Assembly (NCBI GenBank): GCA_950022655.1
Contig: OX465590.1
Span: 44,847,718 to 44,911,717, forward strand
DNA length: 64,000 nt
Direction of reading: 5' to 3'
Source of the DNA: Alentia gelatinosa
Lineage: Eukaryota; Annelida; Polychaeta; Phyllodocida; Polynoidae
The translations under genes were made by a program, and so were the position numbers. The notes beneath the pieces were generated by a model. It saw only the letters and a program-made list of their open reading frames with translations. It searched no databases and had not been told where the DNA came from. Below are positions 2,540 to 61,497 of the stretch, one piece after another (position 1 is the stretch's first letter; every line of letters begins with the position of its first letter).

Positions 2540-2713
2540 CAGGGTAGGATAAAATTAAAACTGATTTGTTTTAATCTTGGCCACCACATGCCAGTCCTGG
2601 AGTATGGCTCCGGACTTCACTCGGCTTCGCCTCATGAAGTCACTTTGCCAAACTCCAGTCATGGCATATGGTGGCTAAGATTAAAACTCATCCAGTTTTA
2701 CGATAGTATCCCA
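2540..2713. repeat. Long imperfect hairpin element
   Basis: The left arm (about 2545-2620) and right arm (about 2634-2713) are inverted complements over roughly 70 bp with several mismatches. Landmarks are AAAACTG, TTTTAATCTTGGCCACCA and its complement TGGTGGCTAAGATTAAAA. The loop contains CTCGGCTTCGCC, which recurs in hairpins at 27786 and, inverted, at 61351. Confidence 0.8.
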
Positions 2714-3290
2714 TCGAAGAGGGTAACCATGGAATGAAGGGACTGGAGCCAGGCTAGGTGCAGAGATACAAGCAGGACAGGAGGTAGATCACAGGATCTC
2801 TGCTAGGAGAGTGGATGAGCTCCTCCCAGCGACCAACTGCCATCAGAAGATACGTACAAAGAGAACTATACATCATCCCCAGAGATATGACGGATAACCA
2901 GTCATCTGTCACCATGTCCAGCCATCGCTGTCATTGCAGTTCAATATCTGCGGCCAGAGTGAGACATGGAGACAAAGGAGAGTCTCACTAAGTGCCCATA
3001 CTGTGACGCATGTTAGTCTTCATCCCATATTTCACTCAGATAAATAATGTTTTTTTTGGTGGAGGTAAATAGGTGAGCCTGTTCCGGACAACCTGTGAGA
3101 TAATGTGTCGGAGTATGACCGGTCATCCTATCATTGTGGTTGTCGTTACTGATACCATTAATGTCATACCACGTGACCACCATTAGTACCTACTGTCATG
3201 TCAGAACAATGTGGACATTGACTCGACTGACTCTGACAGGAGAGATGTCAGGTAATAACTCTCTTACCCGGTATTTACACAAGACGATTC
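2714..3290. other. No gene recognised
   Basis: Unique-looking DNA with a short T-run near 3048. No frame has recognisable protein character and no repeat borders were found. Confidence 0.4.
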
Positions 3291-3660
3291 TGGCCGGCGA
3301 TTCTGGAATTTTGATGACTTTCAGCAGTAAAATGATAGAAATCGTCTAGTGTAAACGCCAAGTGCGTGGCGACTGCAGATCGTCTGATTACATCAGATTA
3401 TACAATTCGGCACCACCTCATGACTATTGGTCATGCTCTGACGCCTGAGACTATTTCCAGCGGCCTTGAATTAATTATCTATATGGGCGACGATTCTCTG
3501 GAAACTACGCCAGTGAAAAAGTCGCCAGTGTAAATGCTCGAGTACATTTTGAGGTCGCCGACTTTTGAGGTGGACACTACTACCGTTAGCTTAACGATCT
3601 ACAGTGGCCACATATTCAGTCGTCGAATGTAAACGCTGGGTATCTCGGTGTTTACACGAG
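3290..3660. repeat. Degenerate copies of the GACGATT repeat
   Basis: Recurring phrases are TTTACACAAGACGATTCTGG, GCACCACCTCATGACTATTGG and GTAAACGC. These are diverged forms of the units in the regular array at 18166-18712, here scattered and partly inverted. Confidence 0.6.
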
Positions 3661-4130
3661 ACAATTTTTATAATATTTCTATATTCTTTGTTTAGTCTGT
3701 CCATGGTCAGTCATAACAGGCTGGTTTGCGTACGTGGGCAGTACGAAGAAGGTTACAACAACAGGTAAACTGTACCATATCGTACTCAGTCATTATCACA
3801 ATACAAATTTACATATTTATACATATACATATGTATAGATAAGAAATTTGATCGCTTTCTCATCTCTAACTTTCTTTGTATAAAATAAAGTTTTTTTCTT
3901 CAAAGTAGTTTGGAGACAACACCTTCTAGTTAGATATGAGTTTGTACAATAAAGTCCTTTGTATCCTAAACTTTAAAACAATCACGCTGAGTCAAACTAT
4001 AAAATCAGAAATCATACAATTTACACCAACAAAAAGTAAATTAACAAGTTATATGTAGATTCAGAATAGTTTGATCTAGTCTGGGTCAGAGATTGAATAT
4101 ATGAAAAAAGAATCATATCGCATGGGCAAC
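3661..4130. other. AT-rich DNA, no gene recognised
   Basis: AT-rich sequence with short ATACATAT runs near 3810-3830. No coding or repeat structure was recognised. Confidence 0.4.
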
Positions 4131-4385
4131 AATTCTTGTTTTTGCGTCTCCTGATGATTTTCAGCCGATGCTTGATGACGCAAAAAGCTAAAAATCGTCA
4201 AGCGTAAACGTCAAACATGTCGTTCATAATCATCTGGTTTTAAACGCTATGTAGAGAGCAGAAAGTAATAGATTCCCCATTTTGACGAGAATAAATCGTC
4301 TATAGTGGTGATGTTTGATGCTTTTCTTGAGTAGACGATTTTGGGTGACGAAATTGCGTCAACAAGCACCACCTGACGACCATCT
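4130..4385. repeat. Second degenerate GACGATT-repeat cluster
   Basis: Contains GATGATTTTCAGCCGATG, AAAATCGTCAAGCGTAAACG and CACCACCTGACGACCATC, in mixed orientation. It belongs to the same family as 3290-3660, 10185-10300 and 17812-18712. Confidence 0.55.
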
Positions 4386-4420
4386 TTTTCGGTCCCTTCT
4401 TGCTGTGTCCTCAAACAGCA

Positions 4421-4984: not shown

Positions 4985-5141
4985 GCCTGGTGGATTGTGC
5001 CCTTTACATCGAGAATCGTATACATACACAATACCCCACGAGTATTGATGGACCACAATTGCCATCAGAGCAAAGCTGAGTGATAATTACGGCATTTCCA
5101 AACGAGTGGAGTATTGTGTATTTTACTATTTGAGTGCGGTT
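4985..5141. repeat. Hairpin part of a composite repeat, split by a MITE
   Basis: The arms pair from GAATCGTATACATACACAATA to TATTGTGTATTTTACTATT around a loop holding AGCAAAGCTGAG. It is the paralogue of 61351-61497. In this copy a MITE (5142-5380) separates the hairpin from the block that normally follows it. Confidence 0.8.
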
Positions 5142-5380
5142 CAGGGAGCTGTTTCAAAAGTCGGGAGGGTGCTAAACGAGAGTACTCACCGCCAAAGCGA
5201 GAGCTAAACAACTGCACTTGAAGTGTCGCTGTCGATGTGGAGGTGCCGCTCGCTATGGGGTTTTGGTAACGGTTTTGCTGCAGCTTTGATTTGAGGTGCC
5301 GCTTGCTGTTACGGCCTCTCGCTTTGAAATGTGGCGTGCCGCTGGAGAGACCTCACTCGACTTTTGAAGCAGCTCCCTGG
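5142..5380. mobile_element. MITE, CAGGGAGCTGTTTCAAAAG terminal repeats, copy 1
   Basis: The left end CAGGGAGCTGTTTCAAAAG is complementary to the right end CTTTTGAAGCAGCTCCCTG. The element is about 239 bp with no ORF. The uninterrupted paralogous site is at 61494-61500, so both boundaries are fixed by comparison. Relatives are at 31263-31496 and 61854-62267. The ends resemble those of the GGGACCTGTTTCA family. Confidence 0.88.
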
Positions 5381-6585: not shown

Positions 6586-7126
6586 AAAGCCAGCAGAAGC
6601 AAGTTGTTCATAATGACTCATGACAAAATATATCAGCAATATAGCAAAATTAAGTAACAAAGGCCTGTCGGATACCACGAGGTGAAGCCATCACAACATT
6701 CATCAAAACCTGGTAATTAATCCACAAATTAATCACTTGCACAAACAATTAGCAGTGGTTGATTGTAGGCCCACGCTGGGCAAGGTTATACGAAGCAGAT
6801 AAGGACAATTAGCACGGTGGATTTAGGTTTGGAATAACAAGAGTAATGGTGGGTGAACGGTGAGCTAGATTCTGCCCCATTTATCTCCCATGTATATATT
6901 GAAGTCTTTACCAGCGCTAGTGGCCTCTTACTTTTTATTGCAGTTATGGAGCATTCATCTATTATGGCCGGGGGGTACAGTTTCTTGTGTAGCGGGAGGC
7001 TAGTTCTAATCTTTCTGAGATCTCTTCCAGAGGACTAGACTAATCTATTCCGACGGAGTGAGACTGTGCTATTCTATGTGGTACTACATAGGCTGGTTCA
7101 AATATTCTTCCGGTAAGGAATAGAGG
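6586..7126. other. No gene recognised
   Basis: Mixed-composition unique sequence with no coding signature, RNA gene or repeat border that I can support. Confidence 0.4.
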
Positions 7127-7266
7127 GAAACTATGTTCCGGTGAAAGGAAGTCAAAGTTACGAGGTAAGGTTTGGAAAAATTACTGCCCAAGGCCCTTGC
7201 CGCGGGCAGTAATTTTTCCAAGCCTTACCGAGTAATTTTGACTTCCTTTCACTGGTACTTGGTTTC
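7127..7266. repeat. Hairpin with GAAAC...GTTTC borders (stem type B)
   Basis: GAAAC at 7127-7131 and GTTTC at 7262-7266 enclose arms that pair over about 60 bp. Landmarks are GTGAAAGGAAGTCAAAGTTA and GGAAAAATTACTGCCC against their complements. The loop is AAGGCCCTTGCCGC. Outside the border both sides extend as GGAATAG, itself inverted. The stem sequence is unrelated to the other hairpins. Confidence 0.88.
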
Positions 7267-7274
7267 CCTATTCC

Positions 7275-7440
7275 TATATACCTTCAAATGTGGTTTAATA
7301 AGAGACAATCTGATTGGTCTAAATGTCAACCTTGGGAAGTATACGGCAACCTTGGGTAGTATACCAACCTTGGGTAGTATCAGATAGTTACTCCACCCCC
7401 CAGAGCGTGGTGTAAGCATAGAGTGTACAGCCATAGGTAT
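7275..7440. repeat. Block between hairpins, TATATACCTT...AGGTATATA borders
   Basis: This spacer starts CCTATATACCTT and ends AGGTATATAGG, so its borders are inverted complements. It contains three near-identical tandem phrases of CAACCTTGGGTAGTATA. It is one module of the hairpin-block-hairpin-block series 7127-7735. Confidence 0.7.
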
Positions 7441-7612
7441 ATAGGAATATTAGGAAACGTCCTTATGTGGACGAAACGGTTCCTGTTCGAGGTCAGTCGT
7501 CGATGTCATACTGCCTGACGCCATAGGCGGAAGGCAGTATGACATCGACGACTGACCGAGAACCTGAATCGCTTCATCTACAGTCAGGACGTTTGCTTAT
7601 TATTATATACCT
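7435..7612. repeat. Hairpin with AGGTATATA-GAAAC borders (stem type C)
   Basis: The left end AGGTATATAGGAATATTAG is followed by GAAACGTCC, and the right end GGACGTTTG is followed by CTTATTATTATATACCT. The inner stem pairs GTCAGTCGTCGATGTCATAC with its complement around the loop GACGCCATAGGCGGA. Between the border and the inner stem the arms pair poorly. Confidence 0.88.
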
Positions 7613-7735
7613 TAAAATGACGAAAAAACGAAATTTTAATGACTTATTAAGTCGCTCTCACAGCGGGCACGAACATTATTATTACTGCACCCCTAGCAGC
7701 GGGCAGTATTTCATAGACATTCGGAGATAGGTATA
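7595..7735. repeat. Second block, TATTATTATATACCTT...AGGTATATAG borders
   Basis: Bounded by TATTATTATATACCTT and AGATAGGTATATAGTAATAG. It contains CAGCGGGCA twice. It follows directly on the hairpin at 7435-7612 and shares its border sequence. Confidence 0.65.
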
Positions 7736-7889
7736 TAGTAATAGAGTGAATCAACTATTACAGTTCTCAGTGAACAAAAAACAGACTCTGAGATCTTCGG
7801 TATATGTTCATTTATCATACCTTTTTACATATAGTACCTTGACACCGGACTGCCAAGTAAAGCCGGGAGAGTGCGTCCACAAACCAAAG

Positions 7890-11845: not shown

Positions 11846-12240
11846 TGAAGAATTTTATTATTATATACCTATGCACTAAATCAGTGTAAATATGTACTGC
11901 TCCTAGGGGTACAGTTATCGTACACAGAATGCACTGTACGCCGTGAAACGTTGTACGGGTGCCTTTGGATAGTGACAGACTGCATCCTTTGGATGACAGA
12001 CTGCATCCTTTGACCCTCACCGGCACGCTTTGGGTGACAGACTGCATCCTTTGAAAAAATAACGCAATCTGATTGGCCGAGAGGCCGACAACAGAATTCT
12101 AGGTGCAAGATTAAAAAATGGCGGATCCCTTCACTTGGCGAGTTCTGAGGCTTCGTACAGAAACCACGGAGCGAGTTAGTGTGAAAATACATCAAACATC
12201 GAGGTGGAATATGATAACGAATCACGTGATACACTTTAGA
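11846..12240. repeat. Dispersed repeat B, paralogue of 53600-53990
   Basis: It aligns with 53600-53990 over nearly 400 bp, sharing GTACTGCTCC, ACAGAATGCACTGTACGCCG, GACAGACTGCATCCTTTG, GAGAGGCCGACAACAGAATT and AAAAATGGCGGATCCCTTCA. Both copies contain short internal repeats of TGACAGACTGCATCCTTTG. The left edge TATTATTATATACCT is the same border seen in the block modules. The open frames in both copies read through the repeat and look non-coding. Confidence 0.85.
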
Positions 12241-12537
12241 TAGCTTAGATATGCGAGAAATATTGATTTCGATGCATTCACGGGCCGAGCGGGCAACTCG
12301 TCGATGTCAACAAATAGCGGAGACACTGCACCGCTCGAGTGTAGCTGTCCGATGGGACGATCGAGCGTAGCAGGGTGACCCTGCGTTAATTTATGCGGCG
12401 GTTTAATGTATTCGCGCCTGCGCGGTGATCACTTCCGGTTATCAACATCCGGCATGTCTGCTAGCGTACACATCGTGTTTGAGAGTTGTGATTTTGACGT
12501 CGGATTACGGTCAGTTTTAGCGAATTAAGACCGAATT
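12241..12537. other. CpG-richer unannotated segment
   Basis: Higher GC and CpG than its neighbours, with CGAGCGTAG and CGCGGTGATCACTTCCGG. It could be promoter-like, but no transcript structure can be proposed. Confidence 0.3.
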
Positions 12538-12708
12538 AAGGTAAATAATAATATGAAACCATAGTGATGGTGCCAGTACGGGGTAGATTTATGAGTTGTT
12601 TCGGAGAAATTCGTTCTGAACGAGCCGGCACGGCGAGTTCAGAACGAATTTCTCCGAACAAATCTGCCCCGTACTGTCACCATAACTATGGTTTCACATA
12701 ATACCTTT
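12538..12708. repeat. Hairpin with AAGGTA(A/T)ATAATAATA-GAAAC borders (stem type A)
   Basis: The left end AAGGTAAATAATAATATGAAA is matched by the right end TTTCACATAATACCTT. The inner stem pairs TCGGAGAAATTCGTTCTGAA with its complement around a GAGCCGGCACGGCGA loop. The outer stem pairs CCATAG...GTGCCAGTACGGGG with CCCCGTACTGTCAC...CTATGG. Confidence 0.9.
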
Positions 12709-13389
12709 ATACAGATGGCATAAGGACACTGGTATAACCACACATTCAGCTCACAGACGCCTACCTGATGCCTACAGGAGCCTATGCGGGCGGTTACTTG
12801 GAGTCTAGACTGTCTAGATTGTCTAAGCACCAGTCTACCCGCATCACATATGCACAATAAACAACCAATCAAGATAATCTGGAGGTTTCTCCCCACATTG
12901 GATAAGGTGTTTCTCCAAAGGGCCCTCTTAAGTTGGGTTAGGATGCATTCTTTACCGAAATCCTTGAAGACATATCACTTTTTTTGTAAAATCCAATATA
13001 TAAACCATGTACCAAACCGTGCCCTATCTTAAGTATATGAACCCTTATTCAATTGAAAGTATTAAGATTAAAAATCATCAGTGGCTAAAAGGTTATAGCA
13101 ATTTATTTAGATGCCAAAGAAAGTTTTTTTACTACAATGGATGTTTTGTTCTACATTGGTTGCCATAGCCACTAAATTTTAAGGCCATGGAAATAACAAT
13201 TCTCATCATGTTCCAAATATACAAAACATGATGAAAATGCGCAGATGTTTTGCTGTTTTTCTTACACTTGCTATTAATGTGTAGGGATCTAGTGGATTCC
13301 GAGTAAATTATCATGCATTTATGTTGCTATGGAAACGAAAGTGATGCTACATTTTCTTTACCAAAAGAGTTGCAAAATCAGATTATAGA
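12709..13389. other. No gene recognised
   Basis: AT-rich sequence with only chance open frames and no repeat border that I can support. Confidence 0.4.
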
Positions 13390-13495
13390 GGAAACCCATG
13401 AAAATCTAGGGTCAGAGCTCGTATCCCATCCCGTTTGAATCACTACGTAATTCACGTAGCCGCGTGAATTATGTAGTGATTCAAACGAGATTGGA
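13390..13495. repeat. Hairpin, GAAACCCATG family, right border lost
   Basis: It starts GAAACCCATGAAAATCTAGG, followed by GTCAGAGCTCGTATCCCATC. The arms CGTTTGAATCACTACGTAAT and ATTATGTAGTGATTCAAACG pair around CACGTAGCCGCG. The outer right arm is missing. It belongs to the same family as 27786-27929 and 37877-38018. Confidence 0.85.
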
Positions 13496-13506
13496 CACTT
13501 TGCTCC

Positions 13507-21373: not shown

Positions 21374-22600
21374 TATAACTATAAAAATAGTCCATGGATC
21401 TAGGCATTTACGATATATATATTTTTTTATCTTTTATCTGCAGTAAACTCTGGGACATAGGAGTAAGTAGTACAGGCAGGAGCCAGAGATTTAATGACAG
21501 TCAATACGGATGGTTACCTCTTGTTCCAGTCGATCAACTCAACTCCGAAGGCGCCCATGACATGTGATCTGCACCCTGCCACCATGCGGGCATGTCAGGA
21601 ACTACAGTGAGTGATAATGGGGGTGAACATACCATTCAAATCATAGTCTGGAAGCCTGTCCAATGTGCACTCACATATATGGCCAGGTAACTACCACCAT
21701 GTTTCTGGTGCATTGCGGGATTGCATTAAGCTGGTACCTGACTGATACTTGTTGGATTCTACGCTGGTTCCCTGCTAGAGATCGTGGCAAAATCTATTAA
21801 AGAAAAAAAAGAGCATTCAAATAAGCTATCTTTTATCTATTAAAACGTTGTTATTACATTATTTTGTATCATTATAAAATGCTTTATATATATCAGTTCC
21901 TGACCAATTGTATGTTATTTGGTGAACCTTATGAGGAAGAGACGTTGTTTTGGTTCTCCTTGCCACTGCAATTCAGCAGGGAACCATGAAAAGTTCAAGG
22001 TCGTTGCTCTTGCTGGTCGTTACCTGTCCCATTGTTCATTGGGGCAGGGAACCCCAAAGCATGACATTTGTAAGTAGACATCAGGGGACAGGAGATTTGA
22101 CGACTGTACAAATTCAGTCATTTTGTTTCAAATATATGTATATATGGACAACTTGGATGATTGATCTCTTCACCTATAAACCAATATGCCCAGCCACACT
22201 GGGTTGTATACACCTGAAATCATTTTTTTGTATTTTTTCAAAGTGGAAGTGTTTATTGAAGAGAAGTACACTTCTGATACATGTGTTTTAGACACTGAGG
22301 TACTGGCCCTCTGCTCCTTTTCCAATGCCACAGTGCTAACATCGGGATTTCTGATACATGTAATTCATAATACGTCCGTTAACATCTCTTATTATTACCC
22401 ACGTAATACAGAGTCTCCATACTAAGCCTATGGAGCCTCCAGATCGCTACTGAGTAGAATACGGGAAGCCGTATTCTCCTAGGAGAATACAGCTTTTTCG
22501 GCCACCTGACGGGTATTTTAGGAACTATTTAATGTAAACAATGCACGGTGCTTGGGTCGAATTTCTAATTATTTACATTTTTTCCCCTAATAATTACTCG
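21373..22600. other. No gene recognised
   Basis: A fragment near 21755-21790 (CTACGCTGGTTCCCTGCTAG) belongs to the GACTGGTTCCCT repeat. A small hairpin with GAATACGG...CCGTATTC arms is at 22451-22476. Open frames of 79-113 residues at 21950-22425 have no recognisable domain. Confidence 0.4.
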
Positions 22601-22615
22601 GAAGGTGGGTAATAA

Positions 22616-22745
22616 ATACAACATTACCATGATTTCTATCTGTGTGGCCGTATTCTCCTTGTAGTTGACGCTACGCAATATTACTATGCGTCAACTACGC
22701 GGAGAATAAGGCCACTCAGATCGAAATCATGGTAATATTGTGTAT
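22616..22745. repeat. Hairpin with ACCATGATTTC...GAAATCATGGT borders
   Basis: The arms pair over about 55 bp: TTACCATGATTTC, TGTGTGGCC and TTCTCCTTGTAGTTGACG with their complements. The loop is CTACGCAATATTACTATG. The innermost stem GTAGTTGACG is shared with the hairpin at 34461-34570. Confidence 0.9.
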
Positions 22746-22827
22746 TTCTATGATAAAATATTTTACATGGAAATTCACATTTTCATTTTGTTCTCAGAAT
22801 AGTTACGACGCCACAGGCCTGCCATAG

Positions 22828-22865: not shown

Positions 22866-23589
22866 TAATTACTGCTGCCTGTCGTTAGGCTTTTATGTGC
22901 CAGGCATTGCCCTGAGACCTCACCCCATCTCCAAGCACAGGCCAATGCCACGCTGAGTTACGGCCGCTCGCACAGATTCCGCTTGGAGAGGCCTGTAATC
23001 TCGGAGTGACGAGATCTCGCGAGGTTTCTCTGTGATCACGTGACCTGAGATGACGTAGTCAGAAGTAACTTGGAGATTTTTAGTTCTCTGATTCCTTGTC
23101 TGGCGCCCTGTGTTCAGATTACTGGAGAATGTAGATATTTCTCAATGAGTTATGTAAATCCTTAAACCATCGGTGCCAGACACTGTGATTATTGCACTTC
23201 TTGATGCCTACTTCATCCACTCATTTCTCATTCACTTCCATTTTAACCGAAAGCCAACTTATGCATATTCTCCATTAAAAACATATCGGACAATATACTT
23301 TGAAAAGTAAAACCCATTTCAATTCGCTGGAAATTGAAATTTATAATCTCAAAGTGTTATAGAACACATATTGCTAATTCAAAATATAGGGGTCACCATG
23401 CTAGTTTTTCGTTTGATTATAGACATTGCGATGATATTGTAAAAGAATTCATAGAAATTCCAAAAGGTTGTTTTTCACATACTAGAATCAATTTTATTTA
23501 CCCAAGCCTCCACAGAATATAGTACAAATATATTATTATATGACTGTGACTGTATGAACTACGTATACTGCCCGCTCCTACCCATGCCG
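22866..23589. other. No gene; CpG-containing segment
   Basis: Around 22998-23060 are ACGAGATCTCGCGAGG and GTGATCACGTGACC, phrases also found in the 52110/59580 duplicated segments (CATCTCGCGAGATATCGTG). This could be an old repeat or a TCTCGCGAGA-type promoter motif. No transcript structure is visible. Confidence 0.4.
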
Positions 23590-23663
23590 TATTTATACCC
23601 GTACGCCACAATGTGACAAACGGGGTATGTGATCACGTGACCAGATAACATTTCGCCATTTTT
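23590..23663. repeat. Diverged block of the TATACCT composite
   Basis: Contains CCCGCTCCTACCCATG and TTTATACCCGTACG, matching 30410-30450, 50680-50725 and 57680-57715. It ends at the border of the next hairpin. Confidence 0.65.
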
Positions 23664-23803
23664 AGGTATATAATAATACGAAAACAGACTGACTGTCTTC
23701 GTACGTCAAAATACTTGGTGAAATTGTTGGTCACATACATCCCTCTACCTACGGCATCGGGATGTATGTGATCAATAATTTCACTGCGTATTTTTGACTT
23801 TAA
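23664..23803. repeat. Hairpin with AGGTATATAATAATA-GAAAAC border
   Basis: The left end AGGTATATAATAATACGAAA is followed by a stem (GTCAAAATACTTGGTGAAAT, ACATACATCCC) that pairs with GGGATGTATGTGAT and TTTCACTGCGTATTTTTGAC. The loop contains TCTACCTACGGCATC. The outer right border is lost. Confidence 0.85.
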
Positions 23804-23984
23804 GAACTTGCATACTATTATCAAGGAATACATAGAAATTCAAAGAGGTTTTACATATTGTAAAACCCATGTTATGTTCTTCAGGCTTTCACTGAATATA
23901 GTACATATATAGTACTGCACTTTTAGGATTTGGATAATATAGATCGTCCTCCTTGGTTTGAAAGAGTTTTCTCTATAAATTAGT

Positions 23985-27322: not shown

Positions 27323-27785
27323 CTGTTTTTGTGTAGCATGGCGCCGCTCTGTCTAGATTAGATCGCGCCGCGAGAGTGAGGTCAATCTCAGGTCAAATGT
27401 CATAACCTCGAGTCCCAGATACTGAACTATGCACATTCCTTTGTTATGATTAAAATTAAGATGTTGCAGAACGTGTTGTTGCTTCTTATTAATTAATATT
27501 TATAAAAATTAGGAAATATTTCATAATAGATTAGCTATTGAAAACAGAAAACCGCAAATTGCAGAGAATGAATCACGGACTCTTTCCTGTGTGGCGGCGG
27601 ACGGGTATGTAGTGCGTGAAACGATCGCTATTGACACGTCGAGTCTGCGTTCATGCTGTTGACAAGATGTATTGGATATGGCGATTTGGCTCTAATAAGA
27701 ACATATTATGAAGGTAGATTGATTTCTTTTATTGTTTTGTTAATGAAGAATACATATACATCGTTTATGGTATGAGATAAATTCA
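27323..27785. other. No gene recognised downstream of the recombinase
   Basis: Contains CpG-rich patches near 27340-27380 and 27590-27650. It may include the 3' end of the Crypton. No poly(A) signal could be chosen with confidence. Confidence 0.35.
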
Positions 27786-27929
27786 GAAACCGATTCAAGT
27801 TTAGGGTCAGCGTCCGTATCCCATCTCGTTCGAATCTGCTCTGTAATTCACTCGGCTTCGCCTCGTGAATTACTCCGCGATTCAAACTCGATGGGATACA
27901 AACCCTGACCCTAAACTTTCATCAGTTTC
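27786..27929. repeat. Hairpin with GAAACC...GTTTC borders (GAAACCCATG family)
   Basis: GAAAC at 27786-27790 and GTTTC at 27925-27929 enclose arms of about 60 bp. Landmarks are AAGTTTAGGGTCAG, CGTATCCCATCTCGTT and AATTCA with their complements. The loop is CTCGGCTTCGCCTCG. ATGAGATAAATTCA precedes the left border, as in other family members. Confidence 0.92.
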
Positions 27930-28339
27930 CTACATAGTATCCTTTGCAATTATACTTGTTAGCAATGTTGTGTTTTATGTAATTCAATATTCAAATGTGA
28001 AAAACATCGATCCTTGGACAACATAGTTAGAACTCGAGTGACCTTTTTTTATTCCATTAGGGATAGCCCCTGATGCCCCAGATGTAAATCTTGGGGTTTC
28101 TTCTACATATTTGAAAGGATGCGAGTTTCACGTATTTAGTACGCAAATACAATAATTTAACATCTCAATGCGCAATCCAGTCACACTGTCGTAAATTCAG
28201 GCATTTCTACTACGTATTTGGGACGGTGGGTATTGGCTATGGATTGTGAATATTTCTATGTGCATAGCTGTTACGTTCTTTTACGTTTCTTAACTTTCGT
28301 CAACGTGTATTTCCACTTCTGAATGTATTATGGCGTATT

Positions 28340-30354: not shown

Positions 30355-30560
30355 AAGCATATTATTATATCATTTATTACATACCTGTAGCAGTATATCC
30401 TACACATACTGCCCGCTCATACCCATGTCATATTCATATCCGTACGACACCTAGGTGACATACAGGGTATGTATGTGGTGTATGGGGCATATACGGCAGC
30501 AAAAAAAAAAAACTCGCCCAGAAGCAAAGTTGAAAATAGGATATTTTAAGGTATATAATA
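30355..30560. repeat. Block bounded by TATTATTATAT / AGGTATATAATAATA
   Basis: It matches 50643-50835 and 57628-57825: GTAGTATATCCTACACATAC, CCGTACGACACCTAGGTGAC, GGGCATATACGGCAGC, AGAAGCAAAGTT, GGATATTTTAAGGTATATAA. It lies in the presumed 5' intron of transporter A. Confidence 0.85.
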
Positions 30561-30704
30561 ATACGAAAACAGGTATACTGTGTCTGTACGTGATAAATAC
30601 TTGGTAAAATTGACAATAAAACGAATCTCTGCCTTCGGCATTGGTTAGTTTTATCATCAATTTTACAGCGTATTTATCACGTACAGCCACAGTAACCCAG
30701 TTTC
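30548..30704. repeat. Hairpin with AAGGTATATAATAATA-GAAAAC border
   Basis: The arms run ACTGTGTCTGTACGTGATAA...GGTAAAATTGAC and, on the other side, TTTATCACGTACAGCCACAG...CAGTTTCC. The loop contains CTCTGCCTTCGGCATTGG. It is of the same stem type as 50820-50971 and 57812-57966. Confidence 0.88.
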
Positions 30705-31262
30705 CATATAGTACTGAAAGGAATATGAATCGCGCAGTTGCCTCCAGAAATTTAGACATACTGTAAGGTAAGGTTGTAATTGCCATGAGGAAAATTGTTT
30801 TACCCGTCTTTTGATATTATAAAGAGAGAAAAAGTTTTGAGAATTGTGGCAACACTTTTCTCTTAGATTGCATTATGAAAGAAATGATTACACAAAACAA
30901 AGAACTATAAAAGCCAATGTTATTTCTATTCATCATGAAATAAGCATGGTACTTTACTTAAATCATATCATCAGATAAAAGTAATAGAATATCATGAGTT
31001 TTGATGAAGCAATAAGCCATTTGTTGTTGAAATTGTGGAAAAGCCAACAGAGCCAGATCATCTTATACCAATGCCTTAAAAGCAGGTGGTTATTTATAGG
31101 TTTTAAAATCTTGCACTGTTAGGATATTTGTCTCATTTTCTTCATACTATGGACAAAATCGATTGAAATTTGATTTGCATCAGCAAAGAAGGTGGAGATG
31201 ATTTGATCTATTGTTTTTTCTTGTAAAGTTGATGTCTTTTTTTCAAATCAGGCAAATAATAC
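30705..31262. other. No gene; end of the segmental duplication and AT-rich DNA
   Basis: Positions 30705-30960 belong to the duplication. The remainder is AT-rich with no coding signature. Confidence 0.5.
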
Positions 31263-34222: not shown

Positions 34223-34460
34223 TTATCTGCATGATACCAAATTCTTGTCCACCTCGCAATACGGTTTTCAACCAAAATTGGGAACGGAGAACGCAGTTTT
34301 TGACTTTGTTAAAGACCTATATGAGGTTAAAAACCAGTCTGCTCTGGTGGCCAGTGAAGTCTAGTAATGGATACACTGGGGTGGCACAAAGTTAGTGACA
34401 TCGAAGTCATGGTCAGTTTTGGCAATTTACAAATGACCTAAGGTATACAATACATAGACA

Positions 34461-34570
34461 ATAATCGATGGTTTTGTGGACAGGCGGCCGTAAACCACGA
34501 GTAGTTGACGCGTAGTATTACGACGTCAACCTTGAGTGGTTTACAGAGCCGCCTCTCCACATAGTCATCG
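34461..34570. repeat. Hairpin sharing its inner stem with 22616-22745
   Basis: The arms CGATGGTTTTGTGGACAGGC, GGCCGTAAACCAC and GTAGTTGACG pair with complements ending GTCATCG. The loop is CGTAGTATTACGA. The left flank AGGTATACAATACATAGACA resembles the AGGTATATAATAATA border. Confidence 0.87.
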
Positions 34571-34826
34571 TTTGTTTTATTTATTATCCATCTTTTCCAG
34601 TAGATTAAACCCAGTAATTGCCATATTAAAGGGTATAACAATGGGGACTATTTCTTTGCTCTATAGCACAAAGGGACTACTTTTCCTGTATACCATGGTT
34701 TTGAGCCCGTATACCACAGATGTGAATCCGTATACCACAGTTATGGTATCTGACAGGTTTTATATACTGGGTTTTGGTTAACTGAGTCCCCATACATTTT
34801 CAGTGGGGTCTTTGTATACAATGGAT

Positions 34827-34910
34827 AATAAAGTAGAACCCCGCCTTACGGACACCCTGTGTAGGCAGACACCCCGCGTTAACGGACACCTTTGCTCGGA
34901 ATGGTTCACC
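34827..34910. mobile_element. pogo-like terminal fragment
   Basis: AAAGTAGAACCCCGCCTTAC, then GGACACCCTG and ACACCCCGCGTTAACGGACA. It is an end related to 35087 with no partner end identified. Confidence 0.55.
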
Positions 34911-37740: not shown

Positions 37741-37871
37741 TTATCTCACCCCGGTATTTTTCTCCATAGGCTTAACATTAGTAACTCGTACTCCACAGCA
37801 ATGAGGTTCGTGTACCTAATACTCAATGACTAATTTTATCAATAAATAATTTCATACAGGGTGAGATAATA
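37741..37871. repeat. Block 1, TTATCTCACCCC...GGGTGAGATAA
   Basis: Inverted borders of 11-12 bp. The internal phrases CCATAGGCTTAACATTAGTA and ACTCGTA are shared with blocks at 2400, 25196 and 38024. It is followed after a few bases by the hairpin at 37877. Confidence 0.88.
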
Positions 37872-37876
37872 TAGAG

Positions 37877-38018
37877 GAAACCCATGAAAGTTTAGGGTCT
37901 GAGCTCGTATACCATCGAGTTTGAATCACGTAGTAATTCACAAGGCGAAGCTGCATGAATTGCTATGTGATTCAAATGAGATGGGATCGAGCTCTGACCC
38001 TAAACTTGAATGGGTTTC
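37877..38018. repeat. Hairpin 1, GAAACCCATG...GGGTTTC
   Basis: GAAAC at 37877 and GTTTC at 38014-38018. The arms include AAGTTTAGGGTC, GAGCTCGTATACCATC and GTTTGAATCACGTAGTAATT with complements. The loop is CACAAGGCGAAGCTG. TGAATTTATCTCACCC follows immediately, which is the start of the next block. Confidence 0.92.
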
Positions 38019-38023
38019 TGAAT

Positions 38024-38166
38024 TTATCTCACCCTTAATATTGACTAATGGGTTAACATTTGTGACATTATCCCCCATTGGATATTTTTCCTAAATATCT
38101 AATGGGTGTTAGAGACGAGATTCCAATGTTAAGTCTATTGAGAAAAAATATCTGGGGTGAGATAAA
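38024..38166. repeat. Block 2, TTATCTCACCC...GGGGTGAGATAA
   Basis: Inverted borders. The interior is itself partly an inverted repeat (ACTAATGGGTTAACATT against AATGTTAAGTCTATTGAG). Confidence 0.88.
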
Positions 38167-38170
38167 ATCA

Positions 38171-38312
38171 GAAACCCACTCGATGAAAAGAACTTGTTTC
38201 ACACTCCACCTCGTTTGACCACAGAGTAATTCATCCAGCTTCGCTTCGTGAATAACTCTGCAGTCAAACTCGGGGGAGTATGGACCAAGCTCTTTTCATC
38301 TCGTGGGGTTCC
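38171..38312. repeat. Hairpin 2, GAAACCCACTCG...GGGGTTCC
   Basis: The arms GATGAAAAGAACTTG, CACTCCACCTCGTTTGAC and AGAGTAATTCA pair with complements. The loop contains TCCAGCTTCGCTTCG. The borders match hairpin 1, yet the stem sequence differs over most of its length. Confidence 0.92.
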
Positions 38313-38665
38313 TTCTAAGTATGATCTGAATTATTAATTATACCTTATAGATATATAATCGTGTAGCTCACTCAGTAATACTGGTATTACAATTACATGT
38401 TATCACCACGACCTTGGATATAAAGTTCTGTGATGTTAGTTCTCATCGATTCTATGCAACTCTAAACATATGTTCATGGACATCTCTTGAGCTGTATGTC
38501 CATGATTTATTGTAAAAATAACATAATCTAGAGAGATATAAACTATGTCTAATGAAAATTAATTATAGACACTGAAAGCTAAATCTCATCTAATAAGAGC
38601 TGATATAGATACTTGTATATATATTCCTTCACATGCATGTATAATTACTCGCGAGGACAACATCT
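38313..38665. other. No gene recognised
   Basis: AT-rich unique-looking sequence. Confidence 0.4.
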
Positions 38666-47783: not shown

Positions 47784-47785
47784 TA

Positions 47786-50642: not shown

Positions 50643-50835
50643 ATATTATTATATACCTGTGGTAGTATATCCTACACATACGGCCCGTTCCTACCCATGT
50701 CGTATTTATATCCGTACGACACCTGGGTGACGTACGGGGTATGTATAAGGCGTACGGGGCATGTACGGCAGCAAAATCCAAAAACTCCCCCAGAAGCAAG
50801 GTTAAAAATTGGATATTTTAAGGTATATAATAATA
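50643..50835. repeat. Block bounded by TATTATTATATACCT / AGGTATATAATAATA
   Basis: The cleanest copy of this block, with both 15-bp borders intact. It matches 30355-30560 and 57628-57825. Confidence 0.9.
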
Positions 50836-50971
50836 GAGAAACAGGCTGACTGTCTCCGTACGGATAAAATACTTGGTAAAATCGGCGATCAGATGAACCT
50901 CTGCCTCCGGCATCGGTTCATCTGATTATTTTATCCGTACGGAGACAGTAAGCCTGTTTCTCTATAATAGG
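50820..50971. repeat. Hairpin with AGGTATATAATAATAGAGAAAC...GTTTCTCTATAATAGG borders
   Basis: The outer border pairs TAGAGAAACAGGCT with AGCCTGTTTCTCTA. The inner stem pairs GTCTCCGTACGGATAAAATA and GATCAGATGAACC with complements. The loop contains TCTGCCTCCGGCATC. Confidence 0.93.
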
Positions 50972-51885
50972 CTTTATATATGTTAACTGAAAAAGGCTAC
51001 TCTTGCCGAAACGATGTGTGTACTACTGTTCCAATAAAAGCCACCCATCAAACCAATCTGGGATCTTGTTGAGTTGTACTTACTACCATCTACTTTATTA
51101 ATTAATACTTCAACCAATAGATCATATTTGCGGCTCCCTACAGTAACCATACTGGCCTGCGGGCCGACATGAAGTTTACTTGTTGAATATGGTGTGTCTG
51201 TTAGCATTTGTATGTTGTATTTGTAGGCTATGTAAGGGTTGGCCTATGCGATGAAAATCAGCCTACCTCAAGGCTGACAAAACCGGCCCCTTTATTTGAT
51301 GCTCTTTGACTTCGCTTCATTTTTATTAAACTGAAGTCCGTTGAATAATCTTGGATCTTATATGAATACCCTTTTCTGTGTGCCAAGAAAGCCCAGGGAC
51401 GATGTTGGTCAATTTAATTCAACACTTATGGACGACCTTTGATTTATTCTTCCATATATCATGCTATTGCTGGAAGAGCATGTTTTTTGTTTGTTTTCTT
51501 TTAAGTTGATTTTTATTCTGGAGTTAGCTACTAGATATACGTGATATCCTATTTTTAGTAGGCTCCAGGGCCAGGCATCATTTTCGGTAGTTTGGAATTA
51601 GTTTGATAATGAAAAAGGATGTAACATTTTGTACAAGGTGTTGATCATATATAAATATTACAAGTGTACATTATTGATTCACCGCATAGTACAGGGATAT
51701 CTAATACTATATGGGTTTCTCCAAATACTATATGGTATAAACAATGCTATTTTGTTTAGATATTATTATTGCTTTTAATAATGTAGAGGAGTATGGTTTT
51801 GGGATCTGAAAAGTACAGCAGTCAGTATGTTAAACGTAGGGCAGTGAGGTTCCCCTTTGTGTACCTTTTAAAGCTTTCACATGCT
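50972..51885. other. No gene recognised
   Basis: Unique-looking AT-rich DNA. Near 51410 the phrase GGTCAATTTAATTCAACACTTATGG (25 bases, quoted in part as CAACACTTATGG) resembles 250-272. Confidence 0.4.
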
Positions 51886-56339: not shown

Positions 56340-56485
56340 AGTAACAACTGCACACAGTATTCCAGCTAGGCGGCATCATTGAGATTATAGGAATCTTTGT
56401 GTTGCATTGATGTATGTCTTTAGCACGGGAGGCAGGCCAGTGGATTCTCAAGGCTCTAAGCCTAGTTTTTTAAGAATCCTTCTCC
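56340..56485. mobile_element. MITE of the 48-bp-TIR family, left end shortened
   Basis: Contains CAGCTAGGCGGCATCATTGA, ATTATAGGAATC and the right terminal CCAGTGGATTCTCAAGGCTC. The left terminal repeat has been replaced. Confidence 0.75.
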
Positions 56486-56559
56486 TAAAGAGCGTAGTGA
56501 GAGTACATAATAGCACTTAGAGAGTGTGAGATCTTATGAGAGGGGAGACAACACGGCTG

Positions 56560-57585
56560 TCACACCACATCCAGATCTTCATGAGTCTGTTTGAGGGATG
56601 AGATGATACTAAGGCTAACAGACAAAGTCGTGATTATACACCCAATCACTTCCATAGCATTCTTCCTTCCATAAAGATGCCTGCCGAGTATAGTATACTG
56701 AGGTATGATATTAAATATGGTCATCAGATTTGTATAGATTGATACCTGTGTTGGACCAATTATTTGAAATGCCATAGTTTCAACAATCGAACCAAGTCCA
56801 GTTGTTACTGCATGTATTGACACCAACATTATACTATTAGGATTCGTGATCATAATAGGTTCCTCCAGGAAAACAAGGAGAATGCCATTACATGGTAGGC
56901 AGAGGACAGATATCACAAAAACTAAGAGTGAAGCATTTACCTCTTTTACATATACTCCTACAGTGATTGTGTATATAGAATCACATACACTCGTTAGAAA
57001 TACAGCAACCAAACCTCCCAAAACTAACCAGGTATTGTTTATCATAAATGGCTCCAGCTTAATGTGTTCAATGGATGTATTATTTGTGTCGATCGATCTA
57101 TTTACCAAGTGCTTCTCAAGAAACCCTGGTGTGAATCCATCAGCAAAAGCATGCCAAGGTTGTGTCAAAAATAGCATTCCTACAGTGCTACCAAAAATGG
57201 AGAGAGGAGTTACTATGCTATGTGTCTCTTTAAACATTATTTTTGATGTGATGAAGATAATTATCATTCGAATGGTTAATGCAAATGCAGACACGTAAGT
57301 CAATGGAAGAACAGAAACAGCAAAAAAAACTAATACAAAGTAAAACAGGGAGGTAAATGCCATGAGTAAAATGTAGGGATATAGTTCCTTATTTGGTAAT
57401 GTAAACTCTGTCATCTTGAGAGGAAATGCACTGAGAACAGTAGCAACAAAATACCGAATGAAGGATAGTTCGAAGTCGGGCACTTCTCTTTGGAGCATCT
57501 GGACTGATACCATAGAGCACATCCAGAAAACCATGTAGGTAGTCAAAAGGCCATAGCCAACGAGGGTCTTTCTGAGAAATTCCAT
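56560..57585 (-). CDS. EamA/DMT-type multipass membrane transporter, paralogue B
   Basis: An intact 341-residue protein, collinear with paralogue A from MEFLRKTL to HEDLDVV. It has the same pattern of about ten membrane helices. By eye about 30 residues differ (about 91% identical). They are concentrated in the loop at residues 150-175 and the following helix, while the C-terminal EamA half around GPTQVSIYTNL is almost unchanged. A splice acceptor (TTCCATTTCAG) lies directly upstream, as in A, so a 5' exon is expected. Being open in both copies argues for function or a recent duplication. Substrate and location are unknown. Confidence 0.87.
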   Translation of the reverse strand: MEFLRKTLVGYGLLTTYMVFWMCSMVSVQMLQREVPDFELSFIRYFVATVLSAFPLKMTEFTLPNKELYPYILLMAFTSLFYFVLVFFAVSVLPLTYVSAFALTIRMIIIFITSKIMFKETHSIVTPLSIFGSTVGMLFLTQPWHAFADGFTPGFLEKHLVNRSIDTNNTSIEHIKLEPFMINNTWLVLGGLVAVFLTSVCDSIYTITVGVYVKEVNASLLVFVISVLCLPCNGILLVFLEEPIMITNPNSIMLVSIHAVTTGLGSIVETMAFQIIGPTQVSIYTNLMTIFNIIPQYTILGRHLYGRKNAMEVIGCIITTLSVSLSIISSLKQTHEDLDVV

Positions 57586-57627
57586 ACTTGTAGAGTGGAC
57601 CTGAAATGGAAGAAAATGACAAAGTAT

Positions 57628-57825
57628 ATTATTATTTTATTTATTATATACCTGTGGTTGTATATCTTACACATAAGGCCTGCTCCTACTCATGTCATAT
57701 TTATATCCGTACGACACCTAGGTGATTTATCGGGTATGTATGTGGCATACAGGGCATACATGGCTGCAAAATCCAAAAACACGTCCAGAAGCAAAGTTAA
57801 AAATAGAATATTTTAAGGTATATGA
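57628..57825. repeat. Block of the TATACCT composite, copy in duplication B
   Basis: Matches 30355-30560. The left border has decayed to TTTATTATATACCT and the right to AAGGTATATGAC. Confidence 0.8.
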
Positions 57826-57966
57826 CAACAGGTATACTGTGTCTGTAAGTGAAAAATACTTGGTAAAATTGACGATAAAGCAAACCTCTTCCTTTGGCAT
57901 TGGTTCATTTCATCGTCAACTTTACCGCATATTTATCACGTACAGCCACAGTAACCCTGTTTCCGT
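57812..57966. repeat. Hairpin, same stem type as 30548-30704
   Basis: ACTGTGTCTGTAAGTGAAAA...AAAATTGACGATAAAG pairs with CATCGTCAACTTT...TATCACGTACAGCCACAG. The loop contains CTTCCTTTGGCATTGG. The border GAAAC is partly lost. Confidence 0.82.
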
Positions 57967-58215
57967 ATAATACTGAAAGGAGTATGAATCGTGCAAGTTG
58001 CCTCTAGAAATTTAGACATAATGTAGGGTAGGGTTGTTATTGCCATGAGGAAAATAGTTTTACCCGTCTTATGGTATTATAAAGAGAGACAAAATTCTGA
58101 GAATTGTGGCAACAATTTCCTTTTAGTTTGCATGATGGAAGAAACGATTACACAACACAAAGAACTATAGGAGCTAATTCTATTTTTATTCATCATGAAA
58201 GCATGGTACTTTTGA

Positions 58216-59340
58216 ATTATAACCTCAGACAAAAGTTTTGATGAAACAATAAGCCATAACGGATAAAAAACTACTTCTTTCCGATAAGGCACCTTAGGAA
58301 CAATCTGAAATATTTAAGCTACCCTAGATATGAAACAATCTGGGTTTATTCAGTCTTTGGTTTATTTTCTGTAAAGTCTCCCCCCCCCCCCAAACGCCGA
58401 TGGTCTATGATGGACCTCATGGTAAAGCCCAGCCCCCACCTACCATGATTCTGGTCCCGATTGGCCTTACGATGGCCTTCCCAACACCATTCTGATTCTT
58501 TTGTGAGGTCAGCCAGAATCGTGGTAAATGAAACAGGTTTCTGCGATTCCGTCTATGACAGCTCACGATAGGCTGCAATTGAAAACGCCAATCGAAGAGG
58601 TCCCAATAACTTCCAACATGTTGGAAATTTCGTAGCCTGTTGTAGGGTATTGTTGTTGATTTGATGGGAAAATATCTCTTGCAGGTGAAATACTAGATGG
58701 TCCCGGACGATCTACACCAAATATCGTTTCATGAATGAGATACCTGGTGGACAGTAAAATCCCTCTTGAAAATTGTCTCGGAAGTAGTGCAGAAGTCTCT
58801 CAAGGATAAGTCCCTTGAACCTAAGCCTCAGGCCCCGTAGACGTGTGACAATATCTATGATATATCCTTGATATCAACAAGCCAAACGTCCTAGGAAGTG
58901 CTGAATAAACCTACGATTATCCAGCTCCTCCAGAACCTCTGTTTTTCCTTTAAATGATGCATATTCCTTTCTCTTTCACCATGACCAGCCATTTTGTTTA
59001 AAAAAACCACCACTGAATACAATTTAAATCACAACTTATCATACTGTATTTTAAAAACAAGCTAAATGTACGACTGCCCTATAGGTATCTATTGTATAGG
59101 AGTCTTTTAGACGACTAAGGACAAAATGGAGGACAAAGGAGAGTTGTACGATGCATTTATACAAAGAGATTTCAAAGGCTGCATGAGATCGTATCCTTGA
59201 ACTCTCCTAGCTCTAAAATCTCCTGGCTTATTCAACGACATTGGCCCTAGGACAATCAGAGGACAATTTCCATGATTTATCCTGGATTATCAAACGGCCC
59301 ACTGTGTCGTTCTTGGTTTTAGACACATCCCTGACCTTGT
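58216..59340. other. No gene; one poly(C) run
   Basis: A run of about 13 C residues near 58380. The remaining sequence has no recognisable coding or repeat content. Confidence 0.4.
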
Positions 59341-59344
59341 TTGT

Positions 59345-60350
59345 TCACTTCTCTTTCATGAGGTCATTAAACCCGAGCCTACCCAAGGTCATGGAGTGCA
59401 CAGTAAACCCGGATAAGTCTGCACACCCACCTGACAGACCTAGCTCAGGAAATTGGTTTTGTAGTTTGGTGATTCTTTCCGGCATCAGAGAGATACGGAT
59501 AGGAAAGATCACCCCGGACTGAAGCCATTGTAATATATACACCTAATAAGTCTACCTTCTACCTCGTAGCTCGCAACGTGTATCGCGCGCTTTGAAGGTT
59601 TCTCCGTGATTACGTGATAGCCAGCTGAATTATGGGAAGTATATCATACTGTCTAACGGAGTGGGAGGAAGTGGTTATTAGGTGCGAAAATTGTATGCTT
59701 CAGTTTCTTATCTGGAAGTGAACGGGAATTAGTTCTGGAAAGATTAGCAAATGGTATATTTAATATCTATTAATTAGCGTAGAATTATAAATAGATAAAT
59801 AACAATTAAAAGGTTTGGGGTTATAGTCAGTCTATGGGTCATAGGATATACAACATGACCCATAGACTGAATATAACCGCAAATTATTTGATTGTTATTT
59901 ATTTGTAATTCCATGCTAATTCATAGATAGATTACTTTTTTCTTTTTTTTTCTTGATAAAGAAATGTTTATTGACAACATGAATTCATCCCAACTGGGAT
60001 GATTTTCCACTTGTGTGTCCTTAAGACTATTACAGATAAGACACAGTTAAGCATATTATCGTAAAACTGGATGAGTTTTAATCTTGGCTGTTGTATGCCA
60101 CAAATAGAATTTGGTATAGCGATTTCACAAGGCCAAACCGAGTGAAATCCGGAGCCAAAACTTACCGGTGCTTACTTGAACTCTGACCTACTTATCTACT
60201 TACTGGTGCTTACTTGAACCTTCACCTACCTATCTACTTACTAGTGCCTACTTGAACACTTACCTACATTTCTACTATTTTAATTGGTAACAATTGTACA
60301 TTCGTACATTTCTGAGTAACTTATACCAGTATTTCTTACCCCTAATCAAG
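59345..60350. repeat. Second segmental duplication, copy B
   Basis: The counterpart of 51890-53435 without the LINE insertion. It shares TCATTAAACCCGAGCCTACC, GGCATCAGAGAGATACGG, CATAGACTGAATATAACC and GACAACATGAATTCATCCCA. Confidence 0.87.
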
Positions 60351-61090
60351 GCGGTGTGTGTCCTTAAGACTATTACAGAAAAGACACAGTTAAGCATACT
60401 ATTGTAAAACTGGATGAGCTTTAATCTTGGTAGTCGTATGCCACAAATGGAATTTGGTGTAGGGATTTCACAAGGCCAAACCAAGTGAAATCTGGAGCCA
60501 AAACTTACTGGTGCTTACTTGAACTCTGACCTACTTATTTTCTTATTGGTGCCTACTTGAACTCTCACCTACTCATTTACCTTTTTATTGGTAACATTTG
60601 TACAATCGTACATTTCTTGAAATCTGCCAAGTGATTTCACAAGGCCAAACCGGAGCCAAAACTTACCGGTGCTTACTTCAACTCTAACCTACTTATTGGT
60701 GCTTATTTGAACCTTCACCTACTTATCTATCTAGTGCCTACTTGAAGTTGCACCTACATTTTTACTTTTTTAATTGGTAATTCCTGAGTAACTTATCCCA
60801 GTATTTCTTCCCCCTACTCAAAGGTAAATGACTTACTGGTTCTTACTTGAACTCTTATCTGCTTATTTACTTACTGGTTCTTACATGAACTCTTACCTGC
60901 TTATTTATTTTCTGGTGCCTAATTGAGACTTCACCTACTTACTTACTTATATATATTGCCTACTTGAACTCTCACCTACATTTTTACTTTTTTAATTGGT
61001 AACAATTGTACATTCGTACATTCCTGAGTAACTTATCCCAGTATTTCTTACCCCTATTCAAAGGTAAATAACTTACTGGTGCTTATTTGA
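60160..61090. repeat. About 38-bp tandem minisatellite, copy B, expanded
   Basis: Many units of GCTTACTTGAACTCT with CACCTACTTATCTACTTA. They are broken by a repeated longer phrase (TAATTGGTAACAATTGTACA, CCTGAGTAACTTATCCCAGT) that also recurs near 60290, 60770 and 61000, so a higher-order repeat of about 250-450 bp is present. Confidence 0.8.
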
Positions 61091-61350
61091 AGTCTTTCTT
61101 GTGGTCCTTGTTTTTTTATATATCTAAGTGACTTGATTTAAGAACTATGCACGCGGTATCCAGGCTGAGATGGATACAGAGATTTTTCAGGAAGATTGCA
61201 CATCTTGGACTTACTTTCTGAGAGAACTGACAAACTGTAACAGCTCTTTCTATGAATCTTTCCTCACTAAAAGGAACAACAAATCTTTAAACTCTCTCCC
61301 CAGTTTCTACGCTGAGCTTCTCAAAGTATGGCAGAAAAAATCTATATAGA
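61091..61350. other. Short unrecognised segment
   Basis: A small frame around 61140-61345 reads like a fragment of LINE ORF on the plus strand, with phrases FLRE and WQKKSI, but it is too short to assign. Confidence 0.3.
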
Positions 61351-61497
61351 ACTGCATCGAGAATCATATAAATAGACAATACTCCACAAGTTTGGATGTA
61401 CCGGAATTGTCATCCAGGCGAAGCCGAGTGACAATTATGGCACATCCAAACGAGTGGAATATTGTCTATTTTACTATTCGAGTGCGGTTCTGGATTT
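61351..61497. repeat. Hairpin with GAACTGC...GCGGTTC borders
   Basis: The arms GAATCATATAAATAGACAAT and GGATGTACCGGAATTGTCA pair with their complements around a loop holding AGGCGAAGCCGAG, the complement of the CTCGGCTTCGCC loop found at 2540 and 27786. It is followed at once by a TTATCTCACCCC block. Confidence 0.9.

Follow-up and report, generated by a model that had tools for sequence, protein, structure and literature searches.

Long 3'-terminal hairpins with regularly spaced mismatches in probable non-autonomous Helentron-like elements of the annelid Alentia gelatinosa

Short non-autonomous relatives of Helentrons and Helitron2 elements (HINE and DINE-1) are described, in the accessible parts of the reports, as carrying a 12-15 bp subterminal inverted repeat at the 5' end and a copy of it before a 3' palindrome, with tandem repeats in some bodies and a stem sequence that varies between relatives (PMC4067079, PMC2374699); Helentrons are likewise described as inserting at TT or T-rich sites without target duplication. 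The DINE-1 stems (7-11 nt) differ between species, and the authors suggest, in the portion of their text available, compensatory mutation and a terminator role (PMC2374699). Here we report that such an inverted repeat and its copy before a 3' palindrome recur in elements ending in long hairpins in Alentia gelatinosa (GCA_950022655.1), analysed in a window of 64,000 nt (contig OX465590.1, positions 44,847,718-44,911,717, forward strand) and across the assembly (1,234,393,884 bases in 101 contigs). We put at roughly 65% the probability that they are short non-autonomous Helentron/Helitron2-like elements whose 3' hairpin acts as a folded single strand, likely the bottom one, its shape being kept by selection. 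The window itself is eukaryotic in character, with few long open reading frames (ORFs) and with EamA, reverse-transcriptase and DUF3504 domains; a tRNA search of it found none.

A first-pass annotation of the window had named 15 hairpins with a common border and unrelated stems. All 15 are real, each being a palindrome of 60.8-161 bits among the window's 25 of at least 50 bits (a few of them of AT-repeat or other kinds), compared with none in each of 10 dinucleotide shuffles, the best of which reached 45.5 bits. The common border was borne out as well: AAGGTATATAATAATA (up to 3 mismatches) occurs 16 times against 1.86 expected and GGTGAGATAAATTCAGAAAC 4 times against 0. The sequence CTCGGCTTCGCCTCG (up to 3 mismatches) is present 6 times against 0.26, three of these six lying within named hairpins. 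That the stems differ entirely holds between eight stem groups (linking at 45 bits) but not within them: 13390/27786/37877/38171, 23664/30548/50820/57812, 22616/34461, and five singletons. Hairpins 30548 and 57812 are not independent, as both lie inside a 1.9-kb duplication of 90% identity. Group B borders in the window accompany the stem groups of 7116, 7435, 12548 and 30548, four in all.

The hairpins proved to belong to larger elements, in which the border recurs upstream in inverted form. In the complete copies examined, a 5' repeat is followed by a body, by the repeat in inverted form as the GATAAATTCA or AGGTATATAATAATA border, and by the hairpin, most commonly 142 nt long, which forms the 3' tail. 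Free-standing foldback or miniature inverted-repeat transposable element (MITE) hairpins were rejected, since the borders are internal inverted copies. The AGGTATATAGG that precedes 7435 more probably represents the 5' repeat of an adjacent element, the one with hairpin 7116-7275. Genome-wide, the border GATAAATTCAGAAAC occurs 10,301 times (5130 + 5171), against 16 (2 + 14) for its reversed letters, and a 35-mer with up to 3 mismatches has 10,376 copies against 0 in the control. At seven of the eight border loci returned, the hairpin ends a repeat of about 300 bp, consisting of TTATCTCACCCC, a body of about 130 bp, GGGGTGAGATAA, the hairpin and CTCTATA; at the eighth (L137), similarity stops shortly past the border. 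Here and below, L-numbers (L137, L143, L147, L148, L153, L154, L162) label sampled genome loci outside the window.

For the hairpins as a set, we took 264 kb, consisting of the window and 200 kb picked around border matches and hence enriched, in which 71 palindromes of at least 45 bits and 70-350 bp were found. When 52 nt of each hairpin edge were compared with the upstream sequence at distances of 70-700 bp, for both orientations if the locus extended far enough, an inverted copy of at least 24 bits was present for 27 of the 71 (by eye, 22 border repeats and 5 other sequences), as against 1 of 71 in the control with the query reversed but uncomplemented; at 20 bits the numbers were 42 and 9. 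Of the 42 elements so delimited, 31 measure 265-413 bp and 11 are longer. The repeats are variants on one theme (TTTATCTCACCCC, TTTATCCTACCCC, TATTATTATATACCT, TATTCCTATATACCT, TTTATTACCCACC, TTTATTATCCATC), unrelated stems occur with the same repeat type, and a fresh group A sample showed the 5' repeat in 11 of 20 loci.

Alignment of arm against arm in the 71 hairpins yielded 106 two-base mismatch blocks, 44 of which are TC opposite TC, while about 0.5 would be expected from single-mismatch frequencies (our own arithmetic). When longer blocks are included, 80 contain TC/TC, and 76 of these lie at tip distances of 5-8, 29-35 or 60-64 bp. These distance intervals were taken from the pooled data, and the 39/43 that results from them is not a held-out figure; the count was repeated with intervals set on the main family alone (6, 29-34 and 60-64 bp). 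These exact intervals, covering 15.1% of positions, hold 26 of the 43 TC/TC blocks of other families, and with a tolerance of 1 bp (22.8% of positions) they hold 38 of 43, from nine other stem groups, together with 34 of 99 other mismatch blocks. Unrelated stems share tandem TC/TC sites, which read GA/GA on the opposite strand, at distances from the tip of about 6, 31 and 62 bp. No TC/TC was seen among the 37 blocks of nine groups (6, 8, 9, 11, 12, 13, 16, 17 and 21), most of which are without borders. The tip is also similar across unrelated stems (e.g., CAC-TC-GGC-TTC-GCC-TC-GTG and ACAC-TC-GGC-TAAC-GCC-TC-GTGT), and CTCG-N5-9-CTCG with at most one mismatch was found in 20 of 71 tips, compared with 3.5% of 3000 random stretches. 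Among 20 newly sampled loci anchored on the border, 10 keep a hairpin of at least 45 bits and their TC blocks fall within the intervals (10/10); as nearly all belong to one family, this does not replicate the cross-family result.

Orientation could be assigned from the flanking border alone for 43 of the 71 hairpins. On the element strand, 35 of these carry TC/TC, none GA/GA, and 8 neither; these counts rule out, for the 43 hairpins, a rolling-hairpin flip/flop. Single mismatches on the element strand comprise 79 A.C and 42 G.T (22 and 10 in the fresh set), and therefore the wobbles sit on the bottom strand. Predicted folding favours that strand in 36 of 43 hairpins with RNA parameters, in 35 of 43 with DNA parameters, and in 8 of 10 of the fresh sample. 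Tandem GA in a C-GA-G context is a stable non-canonical pair. In the mechanism that we favour, the element has a 5' repeat of 12-15 bp and its inverted copy just before the 3'-terminal hairpin, and inserts next to T; the hairpin would work once one strand, in all likelihood the bottom one, has folded on itself. That strand tolerates GA/GA pairs and G.T/G.U wobbles, and the three tandem sites stand at tip distances of about 6, 31 and 62 bp, with an intervening stem that only has to pair. Selection on source elements, through a recognising protein or the need to terminate rolling-circle copying, would preserve the fold while its letters drift through compensatory change.

A search for a gene that could move such elements gave one genome match to Helitron_like_N (PF14214); the protein encoded there in turn matches its own contig at two additional places. 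At these Rep-like places, one frame is Helitron-like (Pfam, E 2.3e-17) and another PIF1-like (E 2.3e-8). The scanned border motifs occurred 0 times in 18 kb around the first place and once in 19 kb around the others, and the other palindromes nearby were, by eye, without borders. The partner search is a lower bound, and the partner may be missing, extinct, overlooked or of another kind. At L162 5936 (C7:3.643 Mb), similarity to the Rep-like locus at C7:36.8 Mb ends exactly where a TTATCCTACCC 5' repeat starts, and judging from this junction an element of the hairpin system may sit inside a Helitron-like gene there. A tentative second reading is that the end is recognised by its shape, that is, a bottom-strand hairpin of about 70 bp with a nearly free stem sequence and a ruler of GA sites, and that the mover would be something other than the Rep/helicase genes found, possibly acting via RNA or single-stranded DNA.

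Somewhat more doubtful is selection of the hairpin as RNA, in the form of a transcribed bottom strand with tandem GA pairs and G.U wobbles. Such a molecule would agree with the A.C excess on the element strand, in the main and fresh sets alike, and with the mean bottom-strand margin, which is larger with RNA (8.2 kcal/mol) than with DNA parameters (2.7); DNA parameters nevertheless point the same way, an Rfam scan of the window gave no match at gathering score, and the four insertion sites read need no target duplication.

These sites come from 34 elements that were screened for an element-free relative of the target, of which the four cleanest were read; further matches, in tandem arrays (L143, and L148 at 8372 and 8773) and around window position 37858 (gaps of 22-48 bp), were left unused. 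The empty sites are (i) GAGCT^TGTATCCC at L147, where the element lies within the arm of another hairpin, (ii) CATAT^ATACGCC at L148, (iii) a site at L153 after TTTTTCT and before TATACC, with TTTTCTATATGCC and TTTTTCTGCAGGCC as relatives and a junction uncertain by some bases, and (iv) GCTGTT^TTATGTA at L147. None of the four requires a target duplication and all adjoin T. The marks of canonical Helitrons (5' TC, 3' CTRR, insertion at A^T) are absent from group A, which has the ends TTATC...TCTATA, and three of the four sites follow T without an A^T junction; of the marks of HINE or non-autonomous Helentron-Helitron2 elements, asymmetric (sub)terminal inverted repeats and a palindrome near the 3' end are present. 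The number of T residues ahead of the group A repeat differs between copies, and a variable T number is likewise described for Helentrons in the accessible text of PMC4067079. MITEs of the ordinary kind, for which a cut-and-paste transposase would leave a short duplication of the target (TA, for example), would share the small size and very high copy number, and a TA duplication fits sites 2 and 4 and, with a mismatch, sites 1 and 3. We regard them as unlikely: the inverted repeats are asymmetric, one at the 5' end and the other about 145 bp from the 3' end, and not symmetric terminal ones, and the TA appears to belong to the group C element because a TTTATTATCC or TTATTATCC start is common to its separate insertions.

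Joint copying or correction of the two arms of a hairpin was one of two readings given in the first-pass annotation. The arms do change together: in each of four stem families, double changes from one Watson-Crick pair to another are some 4 to 6 times as frequent as expected for independent arms (observed/expected 1154/238.5, 347/58.6, 123/32.7 and 52/11.0 by pairwise comparison, the compared pairs having been selected by RNAalifold from the same alignments and the sequences sharing ancestry). For the 30548 group, both partners differ yet still pair at 12 of 45 pairs, a number which none of 500 shuffles reached, in an alignment of four rows of which two are copies of one duplicated locus; on the large family, RNAalifold gave 29 pairs only. 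Copying of one arm from the other by hairpin-templated repair or conversion, at transposition or replication, would produce this excess of paired changes and keep the arms complementary without selection. We nonetheless find it improbable, and its form with correction at every round was not supported: across the 30 main-family copies behind a consensus, given mismatches recur almost without exception wherever a copy has letters at the site (26/27, 25/25 and 28/28). The four TC/TC positions beyond the tip are unpaired in 26/27, 25/27, 25/25 and 25/26, and further fixed mismatches lie off the TC/TC sites (A.C at 54/112 in 19/26; A.A at 36/131 in 16/27). These mismatches have been passed on through many copies by source elements, and therefore the arms are not equalised every round; tandem mismatches persist in unrelated stems too. 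Half of the fresh copies (10 of 20) score below 45 bits as palindromes, two narrowly (41.9 and 43.7), and inserted copies therefore drift. Conservation of the hairpin acts in the source element, where rare conversion may also take place, and selection on the folded bottom strand fits the fixed consensus mismatches better than arm copying does. For an exchange of stem cassettes, the other reading of the first-pass annotation, inspection by eye gave no demonstration: the inner stems of 27786, 38171 and 61351 are still partly alignable, which fits slow divergence. Retention of the hairpins as small-RNA precursors (microRNA, small interfering RNA or PIWI-interacting RNA) is very unlikely. In its favour are the long near-perfect duplexes and a likeness to microRNA families that stays below threshold (34.3 bits at best, with E 0.00026, for a gathering score of 130); half of the fresh sample is decayed, however, and mismatch sites that persist while the stem turns over strongly would be unexpected for a guide sequence.

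Several observations weigh against Helentron/Helitron2-like elements with a selected single-stranded hairpin. Even at 20 bits, 29 of the 71 palindromes lack an inverted copy (some being too near the locus end for one orientation), 28 of the 71 are not orientable, and among the latter the 12538 element has GA/GA at the tip on its presumed element strand. One of ten fresh copies scored GA, through a block outside the distance intervals. Group 17 has the group A border yet no TC/TC, TC/TC is sparse in group B1 (2 blocks inside the intervals and 1 outside, in 7 hairpins), and in 52 kb elsewhere, away from group A, only one of three palindromes belongs to the system, without TC/TC. The four empty sites are all ambiguous by a few bases and leave room for the TA duplications given above. 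The RNAalifold covariation term is unfavourable in the small sets of groups A (+8.92) and B1 (+0.94), because some rows break pairs. Copies within one family share ancestry, so that the counts do not represent independent events, and no autonomous element with these ends was found at the three Rep-like places in the 18 and 19 kb examined.

The elements and hairpins located in the window are given in Table 1.

Table 1. Hairpin elements and related features of the window (positions within the 64,000 nt).
Feature	Position	Strand	Details
Hairpin 2556-2700	2540..2713	+ (inferred)	Group A-like tip (CTCGGCTTCGCCTCA), different stem; no 5' repeat found
Degraded relative of 61351-type hairpin	5007..5145	-	83% identical, same orientation, <40 bits as palindrome
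Group B element	7105..7449	-	Hairpin 7116-7275, 3' border 7269-7284, 5' repeat ~7435-7449
Group B element, unrelated stem	7450..7743	-	Hairpin ~7454-7595, 3' border 7598-7613, 5' repeat 7728-7743; orientation inferred from borders, opposite to that picked by the automatic test
Longer group B element	11856..12706	+	5' repeat 11856-11871, 3' border 12538-12553, hairpin ~12554-12690; 21-bp tandem repeat in body, 11973-12053
Group A hairpin	13378..13500	+	Right side truncated beside CTA microsatellite
Group C element	22392..22755	+	5' repeat TTATTACCCAC ~226 bp upstream; hairpin 22618-22741
Group B1 element	23531..23815	+	Degenerate 5' repeat, body, border 23663-23678, hairpin
Group A hairpin 27786-27929 with 3' border	27766..27945	+	TC/TC at arm positions 10, 41, 67; no upstream 5' repeat found
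Group B1 element	30360..30725	+	Border and hairpin from 30548; within 1.9-kb duplication
Group C element	34440..34832	-	Hairpin 34460-34576; 5' repeat TTTATTATCCAT ~256 bp upstream
Group A element	37858..38173	-	5' repeat ~38147-38173, body, 3' inverted copy 38014-38033, terminal hairpin 37877-38018
Group A-related hairpin 38171-38311	38155..38330	+	Other outer stem; TC/TC at arm positions 10, 41
Group B1 element	50644..50980	+	5' repeat 50644-50659, 3' border 50820-50835, hairpin to ~50969
Group B1 element	57639..57985	+	Duplicate of 30360 element
Group A-border element, other stem	61348..61696	-	Hairpin 61348-61491, 3' border 61486-61505, 5' repeat ~205 bp upstream of hairpin

The 1.9-kb duplication (29082-30982 and 56350-58236) holds, in each copy, an intronless EamA transporter ORF beside the group B1 hairpin element. 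The group B1 element at 23.6 kb is flanked by direct repeats of about 100 bp (23435-23535 and 23816-23914; 74%), one copy of which is held by a relative at 49.8 kb. Another inverted-repeat family is represented at 28987-29264, 9739-9947 and L154 2443-2656; its 28987 member, beginning ATCTCACACTCTC, has 97-nt arms with 84 nt between them, and two hairpins compared were without TC/TC. The window also contains a 63-bp tandem repeat in about 35 copies (15392-17628), and a DUF3504 ORF and a reverse-transcriptase ORF (26229-26936 and 40079-41467), with matches to solved structures of reverse transcriptase-like and R2-type proteins and of an RNA-directed DNA polymerase. Elsewhere in the window, G+C-rich ORFs without Pfam match are surrounded by split direct repeats (43329-43491 = 47786-47948, 98%; 47679-47788 = 47981-48089, 97%), a layout that is presumably that of DIRS/PAT-like retrotransposons.

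Beyond this genome, the apex pattern had no match in public viral contigs and two in public genome contigs, in records titled bacterial metagenome-assembled genomes with no palindrome reported there, while the border patterns matched 110 and 17 stretches of public viral contigs. Comparison of the window with all 129 matched loci by blastn gave nothing at E 1e-3, nine loci inspected by eye, including those with the strongest palindromes, appeared unrelated, and a protein search with the EamA ORF gave no match. The apex strings are absent from the searchable full-text literature, in which coverage of subscription papers is mostly wanting, and no description of such long, ruler-marked hairpins was found in the mostly non-subscription literature searched. 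If our preferred reading of Helentron/Helitron2-like elements is true, the hairpin of a mobile element in a eukaryote is a signal that can be traced across many stem sequences, its important parts (mismatch sites, tip and strand) can be separated from unimportant ones, and the role of the 3' hairpin in Helentron-like transposition becomes testable with synthetic hairpins; seemingly unrelated genomic hairpins can form one system.

Compared with HINE and DINE-1, whose palindromes in the accessible texts measure 5-10 bp (mite HINE) or have 7-11 nt stems (DINE-1), the Alentia stems are about 60-70 bp long and carry TC/TC at fixed distances in one polarity, and no autonomous partner was found. Cg_HINE of the Pacific oyster, in the part of its description at hand, likewise has a subterminal inverted repeat (11-12 bp), tandem repeats and a palindrome at the 3' side, and no autonomous partner has been linked to it; its insertions lie at T-rich sites and show no evident target duplication, and the four Alentia sites read adjoin T and need none. 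Its right flank consensus totals about 60 bp, whereas the 3' side in Alentia measures about 150 bp, almost all of it hairpin (PMC7492417). The fungal Helitron2 FoHeli similarly has asymmetric terminal inverted repeats, about 20-51 bp from the 3' end, and terminal hairpins in some subgroups; its 3' inverted repeat lies far nearer the end than that of Alentia, and the accessible text describes no ruler-like mismatches (PMC5148889). The hairpin length, the spaced mismatch sites and their polarity are new with respect to the literature covered, as far as our searches show. In the terminal hairpin of parvoviruses, a GA mismatch bubble matters for recognition by the HUH nuclease; the likeness is one of working principle only, and no test made here makes that hairpin a relative. 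Membership of the Alentia elements among the non-autonomous Helentron/Helitron2 elements (HINE/DINE-1) is probable, if not proven.

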